Origin: Branchiostoma floridae | Lineage: Eukaryota; Chordata; Leptocardii; Amphioxiformes; Branchiostomatidae | NCBI RefSeq assembly: GCF_000003815.2 | Contig: NC_049994.1 | Span: 14,333,190 to 14,397,189 of the forward strand | Length of the DNA stretch: 64,000 nt | Direction: 5' to 3' | Shown: positions 1-16,600 of the stretch, piece after piece | How positions within the stretch are numbered: the stretch's first letter is position 1 | How the letters are laid out: every line of letters begins with the position of its first letter | Made by a program: the position numbers and the translations under genes | Notes under the pieces: model-generated | Seen by the model: only the letters and a program-made list of their open reading frames with translations | Told to the model about the DNA's origin: nothing | The model's database searches: none

Positions 1-89
1 TAGATGGTGTGCAGCTCGTAGAAGCCGGTGTCATCTTTTGTCAGGTCACGGATTCTGATGGAGACTGTACCAAAGAGTTCTGCACGGTC
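1..89 (-). CDS. Ig-superfamily gene, exon (second half of V-like domain 2), cut by window edge
   Basis: The minus-strand exon follows a pyrimidine-rich acceptor (ctctcctctccag) and opens in phase 0. It encodes DRAELFGTVSIRIRDL and then the F-strand block TKDDTGFYELHTI. The D-x-G-x-Y pattern marks the F strand of an Ig V domain, but the Cys normally two residues after the Tyr is Leu. It is the partner of exon 1069-1247 and matches the second half of V-like domain 1 (14238-14385). The exon continues beyond position 1, so its donor and the rest of the protein are not visible. Confidence 0.8.
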
Positions 90-840
90 CTGGAGAGGAG
101 AGATTGACGTTATTGTGAAGAATAATGATAATAATAATAATGATAAGAAACCAACTGTCTATGGGTGTATCCAAAATACAGGCTTACTTTCTAACGATCA
201 GTGACAATGAGAAATCATTCCTATTATCAAAATCAAAGACCCCACACATTATAAAAGAAGTGGGTAAACTCGTCTTCCACTGCCTAAAAAGAAGTTAAAC
301 CCAACAAAACGAGTATAATGTACAATGTATAATGTAGCGCAATATAGTCATAGAATGTAGTTATTATACGTGTTGTTTGTACCTGCAATTAGCCTCCTGG
401 CATGAACATGCAATATACATATATATTGTTAAGAATAATGGGTAAGGATAATGGCAGCTCCATAGTCTTTTTTAAGGCTGTAAGGGTAGTGGCAGTGGCA
501 CTGTAGTTGCTGTAGTTATACCCCTGTCACATTATCCATGGAAGCGTATCGTTGGAAGGTCGGCCATATTTAAGATCGACAGAGGGTTGCGCGTATTTTT
601 CACCTGAAAACCGTGTCCCAGCCATACTTTGTACCCTGTACATGGGTTCTATCAGTCTATAGAGTTCAGCTCTCTCTTTCTTGTACAAATTGCATTCTAC
701 TACAAGATGATGTCCATTTTCTAACTTATCTAGATTGCAGTATCTACATATTCGCTGTTGTACTCGTTAACATTTACCTACAGAAGTGGTATTAAGTATT
801 TACACAAACCTGACATTCACAAACCGTGAATAATGTCAAC
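90..840 (-). other. Intron inside V-like domain 2 (part)
   Basis: This non-coding tract separates the two halves of the second V-like domain; the intron runs 90-1068. It holds a short (AAT)n-like run near 121-146 and otherwise AT-rich sequence with no exon or repeat that I recognise. The remainder of the intron is the 40-bp tandem array. Confidence 0.7.
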
Positions 841-1080
841 AACACACAGTAGACACACTGATACTCACCAGAAATATCTTAACACAGAGTAGACACACCG
901 ATACTCACCAGAAATATCTTAACACAGAGTAGACACACTGATACTCACCAGAAACATCTTAACACACAGTAGACACACCGATACTCACCAGAAACATCTT
1001 AACACACAGTAGACACACTGATACTCACCAGAAATATCTTAACACACAGTAGACACACCGATACTCACCAGAAATATCTT
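841..1080 (-). repeat. Six-copy 40-bp tandem array of duplicated 5' splice sites
   Basis: Six units of exactly 40 bp lie head to tail (841-880 through 1041-1080) with only single-base differences. Read on the minus strand, every unit carries the last 12 bases of the Ig exon (aagatatttctg, or one-base variants) followed by GTGAGTAT, a consensus 5' splice site. The unit nearest the exon (1041-1080) overlaps the true exon end at 1069; five further donor copies follow downstream. Units alternate between ACACTG and ACACCG, which suggests growth by 80-bp dimers. From the authentic exon, read-through enters the first unit in frame and meets TAA after nine extra codons. Confidence 0.95.
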
Positions 1081-1247
1081 GGTTTCCCCATTAGGATTGC
1101 GCAAGGCTACCGGGGCGCCAGTCTCGGCCCTCACCCAACGTTCTAGAATCACGTCTGGAATGTCCGTGTAGTTCCACACAAGTTCTGCGGTACTGCCCTC
1201 TTCTGCTTCTATCACTACGTTCGGAACGACTATTTCTGGATTGGCTG
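1069..1247 (-). CDS. Ig-superfamily gene, exon (first half of V-like domain 2)
   Basis: The 179-nt exon has a phase 1 start, a phase 0 end, and a CTG|GTGAGTAT donor. It encodes about 59 residues: ANPEIVVPNVVIEAEEG, then the B-strand block STAELVWNYTD, then the C-strand ILERWVRAE. The B-strand cysteine position (V/L-x-Cys-x-Tyr) is Trp. The C-strand Trp is kept. A possible N-glycosylation site (NYT) is present. The acceptor is a CAGCAG (NAGNAG) tandem, so one Ala codon may be optional. The phase matches the preceding I-set exon, whose final A plus CA gives a Thr codon. Confidence 0.85.
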
Positions 1248-1738
1248 CTGAAAAGTGTACGTTGGAAATACATAATTGATCACTGCGAGAAGTGATACTA
1301 TGGAATTAAAAAAGGTATCAAAAGTTATAGCGCACATACAAAGACCCTGCGACAGCAATTGATTGTGGACAGTTCTTGGGATAGCTGTGATCAAGGAAGC
1401 TATGTTGAACCAAGTCCTTCTCCTTATAACCTCCTTGTTGGTTTTGTCGATTCAAAAACAACTGCTTGCGACGGTAGAATGTTGCCATGGCTCTACTCTC
1501 CAAGCAGGGATTCGGCTGTTTTTGAGGTATTTTCGATCGTGCTCGCCGAACCTCTGCTTGGAGAGTATCATAGCGCGATTGTCATTCATAACCGTTGGCT
1601 CTATCATAGCCTTACTAATCGTATCGTGGATTTGACTTCGTAATAGACTATGTACTATCTTTATCTTTCTATATACTAATTGACTAGTTGTAGCGTTTGC
1701 ACAATCAAAACATACCCGTAAGCAAACAATATACAACT

Positions 1739-12610: not shown

Positions 12611-13391
12611 GCTATATAGCTACAGATACAGATGCCATGAGGATATGAGTAGTGCCCCATAGTACTCAGAACAAAGGAAATCAATCACAAAAGTGGCGTG
12701 TGACGTATGGAAGAGAGAAAGTGCACCACTTACCAGCGACAGAACAGACAGAATAGACAGTGCAGAGAAGAAAGAAAGACCTAGCTTAGCATCTAGCAAC
12801 AGGATTAGTAGAATCTTCTAGCTACACACCTTAACTTGCAATAGCTAGTAGAAGAGGTGGATAAGAGTGCGGGAAATAATCGGATCTACGAATATGATGA
12901 GGCTTTTCGTCTAAGTACTATGCACAGTTTCGAAAGAGTTCTCCGCTAAATACATGCCCAAAACCTTGAATGTATTCCTATACGTACATTGACGTTGTTT
13001 TCTACCTACAGTCACTATAAAAGCATGCTGTTCAACAGTTTCTAACTTGCATGATTTTCACAGGCACATCGACGATCTCACTACTGTCAAACCTGACCAA
13101 GAAGACCACTCAGGTGACCGATAAAATGTAGTCTATATAGACAGTGGTCACTATAGACAGTGTTTTAATGCTTGTGCCAATGGGAAAATCCTCTGATGTA
13201 CCACCAAATAGTGGTCGTATTGGCCAGGTGGTCCTTTCGTAGAGGTGTTCACTGGTACAGGTTTGATAGTACATGCGTTCAAGAGCATTAACGAAAAAAA
13301 AGATGCTTCAAATCTTACGCTGGTCGCATGGTGGCGCTTATGTACAGCATTGCCAAGACTCAAGACTACTCAGTTCAGAGAACATACTCAC

Positions 13392-13667
13392 TTAGGACAT
13401 TGATGGAGATATCTTTGGAGGCGGCTTCAGGAATGCCGTTATCCACGGAACACGTGTACGTCCCCTTGTCTGCCAGCGTGATGTTGGGAAACACCAGATT
13501 GCCGGAGTTGGCGTCGATGGTGGCGGCTTTACCGAGGGCGCCGCTTTGTCTGGTCCAGCGCACGGCGGGTTCGGGGTTGCCGTCTGCGTTGCACATGAGG
13601 GTGAGGGAGGAGCCTTCTCTCACGGTGGAGCTGGGGCTGGCCGTGATGCCGTCAATGCTGGGTGGGT
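13392..13667 (-). CDS. Ig-superfamily gene, exon encoding I-set/C2-like Ig domain
   Basis: This is a single 276-nt exon, phase 1 in and out, with acceptor atgtactccag and donor CTAA|GTGAGTATG. It encodes a complete canonical Ig domain: PPSIDGITASPSSTVREG, SSLTLMCNADGNPEPAVRW, ANSGNLVFPNITLADKG and TYTCSVDNG. Both disulfide cysteines (LMC and YTC) and the core Trp are present. N-P-E-P-x-V-x-W is typical of I-set/C2 domains of cell-adhesion receptors. A glycosylation site (NIT) lies before the F strand. It joins in frame to the flanking V-like modules, giving the order V, I, V. Confidence 0.9.
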
Positions 13668-16600
13668 CTGGAGTACATATGTTTAAAACAAGACTGGCAA
13701 TTAAAACGTTATTGCCATGGCAGCTATGGCCTCTAAAAAGACAACTAACTTGAAACGGGAATCGACTGAAGGTTCCTGTCATGAAGTCTCTGGGGCATCG
13801 CCAAAGTCAGACGGCCAATTTCTAGCATTCAGCAGGTAAGGTACCCTTGGAAAAAGCGCCTGTAATGTTTTTTCTTTGGATATGTTTTGGATTTTGTAGG
13901 TGCATAAGGTAAGTTTTCTTTTACCTTTATATTGTGTTGAAAAACGATTTGTTTTAACAATGTTTGTGGTTGCAGTAGGCTCTAGAATTTAGGTGTTTTG
14001 ATGTTCTTTACAGACAGTGAAGACGGGTCGAAAGGTCACCATGTATGCTATGGTCATATTTCACGTGTTCCGCCGTATATTTTTTCTTGGTTTAGTGTTC
14101 AATTTACACTTTTGAAAGAGGCCGGACAACCATGCCAATGTGAGTTTTTCATGGTGTAAAACTCAGGTAGGTGATTTTTGACAGCCTCTTTCTGTCACGA
14201 TTTCTACTACATGTACTGTAATGTTACCGGTACTCACAGTTGACGATGAGGTAGGCTGTTGAAGATAAGACGTATCCGTTTCCGAAGGTGATTGACAGCT
14301 CGTACGGTCCGTTATCCTCCTTCTGCACATCCTTCACCTGCAGCGTGGCCAGCCCGATCACACTGTACTTGGGATCGCCCCCGTTCTGTGGAGAAGTGCA
14401 GAAGTTGCTTTTCTGTTTTTTAAAGGACTTTGTTCATTGCAAGACAATTGACCACTACGCTCACTGTAGCAGCATCTGAAGCATCGAGCTTCGGTAAGTT
14501 CGACTATCTGGCCCTGGCCAATAGGAGAAGCAGGGGTTACGAGGCTGCTCAGGAAAACTCCCACCCCATTTGGCTGGAATGATCCACTTACAGGGGGAAG
14601 GTCATTGCTTTTAGACAGACGAAGACAGTGTGGCACTGCACTCAGGTTAGTGACTTATTTTAACAGTACCGCATACAAAGTACAGACAGAAGGGAAAGGT
14701 AGTCTTATAATTAATTCTCTGACCGAATTCAGGTACTAAGTACCCATTTGTACACCTGGGTGAAGTGAGGAAGGTCGAGTAAAGGTCTTTCCCAGGGGCA
14801 CAACGTCGAGGACACGGTGGGTATCGAACTCAGGGCCTCTAGAGCTATGTTCCAAGCCCAATCTATCTTTGAAAGTTTCTTGTTCGATGGCCACGCTAAC
14901 ACAAGTTGACCTTACCTGAGTGCACCTCGTCTTACCTGTACTCGTTTATGTTTGCTTGATGAGAAAAAAAATAATTACCTGGTTTTGTCGGAAGTACTGG
15001 ACTGGTCCACCGGACCTTGAAGCCAGCGCCATGGAGGGCGCCTTCTTCCAGACCTCGAATAACCGGAGCTGGCCCTGTGCGTTATACGTCCACTCCAGGT
15101 TCACCGTGTCGCCGATAGACGCAGTCACGTTTGCTGGGTCGTTTATCACTTGCGCTGTAGAAGAGAAAAAAAGGGTCCTTATATAAGATAACAGAAGTGC
15201 ATTTTTATCATTACCATTATCTCGCTCTTTGAAAACATTTTGGGTTGGCAGAAACTCTAGCTGACTGCCTATCTCTACAAAATGTCAAGAAAGCCACCTA
15301 ACAGTTCAAAGTGCGCATGCCCAGTCGTAATGCATTGTGGTATATAGGTCAAAGGTAACTAATATTTTCAGTACGTATTTCAGGGAGTAATCTAATTCAT
15401 ACCGCTTAGTGTTGAGCAACTCCTACTTGTCTACAGCCCTTTATGAGGCAAGAGAACATTACCCTCTGAAAATCCTACTTGGCAGTCCTGGAATTTTGAA
15501 CTTTGAAATAGACCACAATGCATCACAACTGCGCATGCGCACTTGGAACAGTAAGACCTCCCATTTATTAAAATTTTACTTAAAAGTTTACTTAAATAAA
15601 TATAAACGAGAAAAACATAATTGCCGAGTGCTACAAAATATATACGTATGCAGGCAAACATATATTACGTGTAAAGGTTATTGGATATTCCAAGGCAGCG
15701 TATTAAAAATCGTGACATGGCAAAAACGGTAAATGTGATAACATTAGCACTGGAGTCGTTAATGTGAGAAGTAGGTCAATTGACTGCGCCTCCTCCAGGG
15801 TAATTTACTTGAGTTATACAGGTCAGATATCGGTCATCTGTATTCCAGGACATTATATTTTTATTTGTGGGACAAACAGTCTATTTACTTATACAGAAAG
15901 GTACAACTACAACAACTACAAATCAGCAACTAGAGGGATAGAGGTAGATGCATTAGTAGAAATCACTTCTGCAAAATTGTCATGTGGGATACTTTAGTAT
16001 TCCACCTTTTCATTGGATGTGCTGGAATGTTTAAGGTGTGGACTGGGAAATGTTTACATGTTTCAGGTACTTCAGGGTATGTATCAATGATAAAACTCTA
16101 TTTCATTAACGGAACCCGTCAACTGTATTTTATTTTATAAGAAGAACGGTGCCAAGACATGGACGAAGTGTCGCTGCACTACAATAACGCATATTACAGT
16201 GCCACAGAAAACCACACAAGATTAGACAAAGACAAACTTAAGCATCCTTCGCTCCCGTCCTTTTAAAATAATATACAAAATCGCGTATTTCCCATCGCTG
16301 ATGTGAGAATTACGTCACGACTAGGGAAGCAACAGGAAACGTTTTCACACCTCATCTATCTTTTATGCCATCGAAACCTCATTATCTGCTAATCAATTTA
16401 TCGTCTGACAGCCAATCAGGTCATCGATCCAATAAGACGAATTAAGGCTAAGTGGTGGGGGCCGGGAAGAGTCCTTAATCAGGAGTTGACCTTATTACGG
16501 TACGGAAACGAACTTCGTAACAAGTCTGAAGTAGGAGATACAGGCGCCCACGTTTAGACTTCAAGAGAGGATGATTAAAATCTTTTGAGACGTTTCCTTT

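Follow-up and report, generated by a model that had tools for sequence, protein, structure and literature searches.

Minisatellite-like tandem duplications of exon/intron borders have been described in amphioxus under the name 'mirages' in Adh3 and the globin genes (PMC3087553), and PGBD5 has been added to the genes that carry them in an account that also cites TnC (PMC3902484). According to a citation in PMC3087553, the class has been in print since 2002. The units are given there as 10–72 bp in Adh3 and 150–160 bp in the globins, and the same paper tells of BflGb6 haplotypes with 6 versus 3 units and of somatic instability in Adh3. Both papers report mirages without disturbance of regular splicing. 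No genome-wide mirage survey was found among the papers listed, which were largely open-access ones, and the words mirage and minisatellite are absent from the main text of PMC4284660.

The window analyzed here, i.e. the whole stretch of 64,000 nucleotides of contig NC_049994.1 of Branchiostoma floridae, holds a tandem array at 841..1080 (minus strand) that fits anatomically as a member of this lancelet class. The initial annotation had missed the known class, but the anatomy that it gave, namely an Ig exon end, a border at 1068 and truncation beyond it, stands.

Anatomy of the array and its host gene

Tandem Repeats Finder resolved 841–1080 into 6.0 copies of period 40 with 95% matches and 0% indels, and together with direct reading this agrees to the base with the six 40-bp units on the minus strand that had been claimed earlier. 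Direct reading likewise placed the GT dinucleotides at 1068, 1028, 988, 948, 908 and 868 (minus strand), and recovered the last 12 exon bases and a donor in every unit, as annotated. On the minus strand each unit begins with the 12 exon-end bases, continues with the donor GTGAGTAT and then the intron start, and includes 28 intron bases. Of its 40 columns, 37 are invariant among the six units and variation is confined to unit positions 6, 22 and 34; the donor, CTG followed by GTGAGTAT, has the same sequence throughout. Neither flank holds a clear further unit, as the consensus is matched at only 17 of 40 positions in the 40-mer after the array and at 4 and 9 in the two that precede it. Triples of GGTGAGT with gaps of 15–45 nt occur four times in the window, all within the array, and in none of 100 shuffles, which excludes chance as its source.

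The repeats thus lie in tandem across an exon-intron boundary with the donor included in each unit, the 40-bp unit is of minisatellite size, and the coding border at the array edge is intact, with the join from the first donor giving a V-set domain. It is very probable, in our estimate, that the array is a mirage, that is, a nearly neutral minisatellite at a donor border which is spliced from the first donor, the wrong products presumably being destroyed.

The exon at the border (1069..1247, minus strand; ANPEIVV...GETKIFL) encodes the first half of a V-set Ig domain, as indicated by its open frame, the junction translation and a V-set match across the junction, in agreement with the Ig exon of the initial annotation. 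It measures 179 nt if the first AG of its cagCAG acceptor is used, and ends in phase 0 at the exon-side donor. This double acceptor (~1244–1250, minus strand), with which the V-domain exon starts, may make one residue optional. The following intron (90..1068, minus strand) is 979 nt long and contains five and a half array units, and the next exon, with the second half of the domain (DRAELFGTVSIRIRDL...), occupies 1..89 (minus strand) and continues beyond the window edge. The 88-residue product of the first-donor join matched the Pfam V-set model with E 4.3e-4 and 20.9 bits, below the cut-off of 26, and a longer join that includes a second Ig domain matched it at residues 12–103 with E 2.2e-10 and 41.1 bits.

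Downstream, in locus L009, we noted more Ig exons and a hydrophobic C-terminal end (the latter by eye), so that the gene is a multi-Ig gene and its protein is likely to be GPI-anchored or membrane-bound. By sequence, carcinoembryonic antigen and the contactins are the best relatives of solved structure; elsewhere in the genome no close relative of the exon protein was found, its one match being itself. Beyond the Ig gene lies a Rho-family GTPase-like gene (L009 ~2900–660, minus strand), recognized by eye in translations.

A second Ig gene, or a part of one, lies in the window with its exons at 13378–15154 (minus strand); it is related to the array gene and matches V-set, below cut-off, and Ig_3. 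Its V domain (15154–14979 and 14385 on) has 27% identity to that of the array gene with E 1e-10 in a single comparison, and its first-half exon (14979..15154, minus strand; ...VQYFRQNQ, then gtaatt) served as the comparison locus. A phase-0 intron interrupts this domain too, within the same loop region, and Tandem Repeats Finder detected no array there. The two introns may be one old intron, a notion weakened by their alignment 8 columns apart within a gapped loop (MAFFT). The intron of the array gene may be older than the array, but the reading of the array as a mirage is independent of whether this is so.

The same intron carries, just beyond the array, a dispersed element at 700–762 (minus strand), for which 39 other places at 90% identity were found on contigs C1–C11 among the 40 scored of 138 candidates. 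An open frame overlapping it (766–530) has no Pfam match.

Such an element, together with a donor-bearing family of ~51-bp units that is dispersed in the genome (see below), brings up the notion that the array itself is a transposon or other dispersed repeat lying at an exon end by chance. A 601-base query from the region matched at full length only itself in the genome (40 of 138 candidates scored, simple repeats skipped), and its 39 other scored matches cover the last 63 bases alone, outside the array. The 40-bp unit is absent from the other 80 places in the genome with tripled CTGGTGAGT, and it begins with 12 bases that form the coding end of the host exon itself. Given the query matches and the tripled-motif places, we reject a dispersed repeat as the source of the window array and regard this as the least credible of the readings considered here.

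Choice among six identical donors

The exon-side donor (GT at 1067..1068, minus strand) is followed on the same strand by duplicated donors 2 to 6, with their GTs at 1027..1028, 987..988, 947..948, 907..908 and 867..868. With a predicted U1 pairing of -11.1 kcal/mol, the six tie for the best among the 123 GTs scored on the minus strand (plus coordinates 1500 to 11). When donor 1068 is joined in silico to the following exon, the frame stays open as far as the window edge, and this is the sole donor that keeps the Ig frame. Use of donor 2 adds 40 nt and a stop after 9 extra codons. In silico, all five distal donors give an identical frame of 68 residues from the exon start, ending in VSIGVSTVC, which bears out the earlier statement that any of them would run into a TAA nine codons past the border.

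The proposal that the array is a buffer of redundant donors fails as a simple backup, since the distal donors add 40–200 nt with an in-frame stop and hence cannot rescue the protein. The alternative of a switch yielding truncated forms, also raised in the initial annotation, is conceivable but found no support here.

Donor 1068 is probably the one used in RNA. As the six donors are equally strong, position and not strength must decide the choice; donor strength cannot account for the first of six identical donors winning. SRSF1 is reported to favor intron-proximal donors and hnRNP A1 intron-distal ones (PMC5585400), and in a reporter assay 26 of 31 downstream intronic elements suppressed the intron-proximal donor (PMC1877881). 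Given that so many intronic elements placed between donors have this reported effect, a choice of the exon-side donor is not odd in itself. Its exclusive use, as the intron-distal donor, may rest on intronic elements of this kind, on exon definition or on the decay of wrong products.

On these grounds the history of the array as a mirage can be sketched as follows. A 40-bp segment across the donor would have been duplicated in tandem, and the copies, perhaps as 80-bp pairs, would have expanded through unequal exchange or slippage. Since the copies came to lie toward the intron, both the exon and its original donor would stay intact. The spliceosome would join donor 1068 to the acceptor at 90/89 and remove the remaining units with the intron, and transcripts cut at distal donors would acquire a stop in the added sequence and presumably be cleared by nonsense-mediated decay. 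The array would be tolerated as nearly neutral, and its copy number would probably drift.

The same anatomy could also serve as a splicing brake, in which distal cuts are destroyed and the number of units sets the level of functional mRNA. That six donors tie for the best U1 pairing and that every distal choice leads to the same premature stop would suit such a device, as would the reported preference of SRSF1 for intron-proximal donors, which are the wrong ones here. On the other hand, most elements in the reporter assay suppressed just these donors, the 25 array groups considered below have no frame preference, and other mirages are reported not to disturb splicing, though steady-state RNA would hide decayed products. 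On balance we consider the brake unlikely.

Donor arrays elsewhere in the genome

The genome contains other donor arrays of like architecture, and the idea that the window array is a unique curiosity can be rejected. Tripled GGTGAGT was found at 2021 places as against 520 for the reversed motif, counted as overlapping places with simple repeats included. For tripled CTGGTGAGT there were 84 places against none reversed, 44 of which belong to one paralogous family on C4 and C13 and 4 to the window array (hand count), and for tripled CAGGTAAGT 50 against none. The motif AAGGTGAGT, with 22 tripled places against 10 reversed, shows hardly any excess. Not all donor arrays are mirages: 24 of the 50 CAGGTAAGT places, or 17 of 24 sites, resemble by eye one dispersed family with a unit of ~51 bp. 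This tandem family (e.g. C9:22694953, C10:9105055 and C17:11831462) is apparently mobile or satellite-like. Many tandem places at C10 ~2.995–3.073 Mb also have a 51-bp unit, beginning TTTCAGGTCGTCAACAG, and are perhaps coding repeats.

We examined 28 loci, comprising nine arrays on C1 with tripled GGTGAGT (9 of the 12 among the arrays listed there, two simple-repeat arrays and C1:5563544 being left out), 12 CTGGTGAGT regions (exclusive of the window array and of one C1 array already in the set) and seven other CAGGTAAGT arrays. Dropping L054–L056 as paralogs of L053 left 25 loci. Of the 25, 18 have a first counted donor that closes an open frame of at least 60 codons. In 84 kb of the window neighborhood the same holds for 12 of 68 sites of the reversed motif and for 10 of 58 isolated donors, a comparison that is only indicative, as the arrays come from selected lists, the controls from one neighborhood and 6-base motifs, and L064–L070 have little upstream sequence. 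L050, L067 and L068 are without an exon-like frame.

Homology was detected at 10 of 23 loci when Pfam and PDB-sequence matches are combined, the remaining exons being supported by open frames alone. Pfam matches with E of at most 0.01 were found at eight of the 23 (L043, L051, L052, L057, L061, L063, L069 and L070), four of them (L051, L057, L063 and L070) below the curated cut-off. Five of the seven loci tested had PDB-sequence matches (L044, L063, L064, L069 and L070), and L047 and L057 had none.

Donor-bearing arrays, often with many identical donors, are thereby seen at exons of conserved genes, namely those for CDK8, dynein heavy chain, DNA-PKcs and S-adenosylmethionine (SAM) decarboxylase. 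CDK8 (L063) is the clearest case, in that homology extends through HRDL right up to the first donor, and the KPANILVMGEGPERG exon comes after the array. Splicing from the later donors would lengthen the message by 34, 68, 111 and 154 nt in a frame that meets a stop after 23 codons, so that an intact kinase can come from the first donor alone. The CDK8 intron (C170:248400–252700, minus strand) contains five donor units and, in addition, a longer copy of the exon end that has decayed and in which the donor has become GATGAGT. At DNA-PKcs (L069) homology stops ~10 residues short of the first counted donor, near an earlier and weaker GTGAGA border, which is for this reason probably the authentic one.

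The effect of distal donor use is predicted to differ among loci. The arrays of L043 and L057 meet a stop within a few codons. At L044 and L048 on C1 the 39-bp units can be read in frame without a stop for at least 120 codons beyond the first donor, and use of a distal donor would there lengthen rather than truncate the protein. L053–L056 (C4 15.87–16.12 Mb) and L059 (C13 9.31 Mb) are related genes with open frames of 427–898 codons and a common donor array, which suggests that an array can apparently be passed on through gene duplication.

Acceptor motifs were counted in the same manner. Tripled TTTCAGG occurs at 304 places versus 98 reversed, these being overlapping places and not arrays, with some simple repeats among them. 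A donor is present at some of the listed places, and a similar 51-bp unit recurs at many of those on C10. In 84 kb, single sites of GGTGAGT number 14 (six of them the window array) versus 5 reversed, and those of TTTCAGG 16 versus 9. With overlapping counts, simple repeats, a shared 51-bp unit and such base rates, the comparison of donor with acceptor arrays is given no weight. An upstream AG tends to be used first, and fewer acceptor arrays could therefore follow from selection alone.

The window locus adds one gene to the known mirage class, and the arrays raise the questions of whether duplications are preferentially seeded at donors and of how, among equal donors, that on the exon side comes to be chosen. 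Provided that no other donor of an array is used, the arrays offer natural test cases for the spliceosome's choice between 5' splice sites of equal strength, and also for whether a copying process favors such sites. We regard as doubtful, though worth stating, that 5' splice sites in this lineage actively attract tandem duplication, e.g. via RNA-DNA hybrids or replication trouble at exon ends, instead of merely tolerating it.

Growth, neutrality and relation to known systems

Division of the first donor-donor spacing by three left remainders of 0, 1 and 2 in 9, 8 and 8 of 25 groups (hand count), these being the window and 24 other loci groups, with L053–L056 and L059 taken as one. Several of the arrays have mixed spacings, the set includes loci without an exon-like frame, and 25 groups leave a weak frame effect possible. 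The absence of a preference for multiples of three is what would be expected if the units leave with the intron. Among the three options of the initial annotation, neutral slippage is accordingly the best supported, fitting both the known class and the spacings, and the redundant-donor buffer is not.

The claim of recent growth, which had been based on the homogeneity of the units, is weak. The units differ by 4.2% on average in pairwise comparison, close to the 3.2–4.2% reported for amphioxus heterozygosity (PMC12862219), and there is no need to regard the array as particularly young. At unit position 22, G and A alternate along the array (G,A,G,A,G,A). This hints at growth by 80-bp pairs but is no more than a hint, as on simple counting 2 of the 20 possible arrangements would show such alternation.

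The assembly has one copy of the array locus, and copy-number variation in the window array is plausible by analogy with other mirages. Copy numbers of arrays are reported to differ between two assemblies (PMC3902484), and one array is reported as mis-assembled in the draft genome (PMC3087553), in line with the suspicion that the array, or its length, is an artefact of collapsed or expanded polymorphic reads. The units carry different variants and other loci share the architecture, which argues against this, and we hold an artefact to be very unlikely, less probable still than the brake; the exact number of six units in the window could nonetheless be an assembly error.

In including a splice signal within the duplicated segment, the array resembles the Rogers model of tandem duplication of an AG/GT proto-splice-site, as cited in PMC3087553. 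Unlike the intron gain of that model, the array locus bears no sign of intron creation, and we found no support for this origin. The related V domain is also split in phase 0 in the same loop region, but 8 alignment columns away, which leaves intron creation conceivable. The human internal tandem repeats described at exon-intron boundaries in segmental duplications (PMC2812944) also have minisatellite-type units, averaging 30 bp x 4, which can sit at gene boundaries and introduce cryptic splice sites. Those cases, as described, are found in paralogs of recent origin, where they often make exons longer or give rise to introns, whereas the window exon would be unchanged if the first donor is used.

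The likeness is closest to the amphioxus mirages of Adh3, BflGb6 and BflGb9, TnC and PGBD5, in which, as here, a border is duplicated in tandem with splice signals in the copies, and the 40-bp unit falls within the 10–72 bp quoted for Adh3. The window array is distinguished from BflGb6, where the duplication comprises the 3' intron end and the exon start, and from the published mirages in general by its V-set Ig host gene and by having all six donors identical, as against the retention of signals in many but not all repeats.
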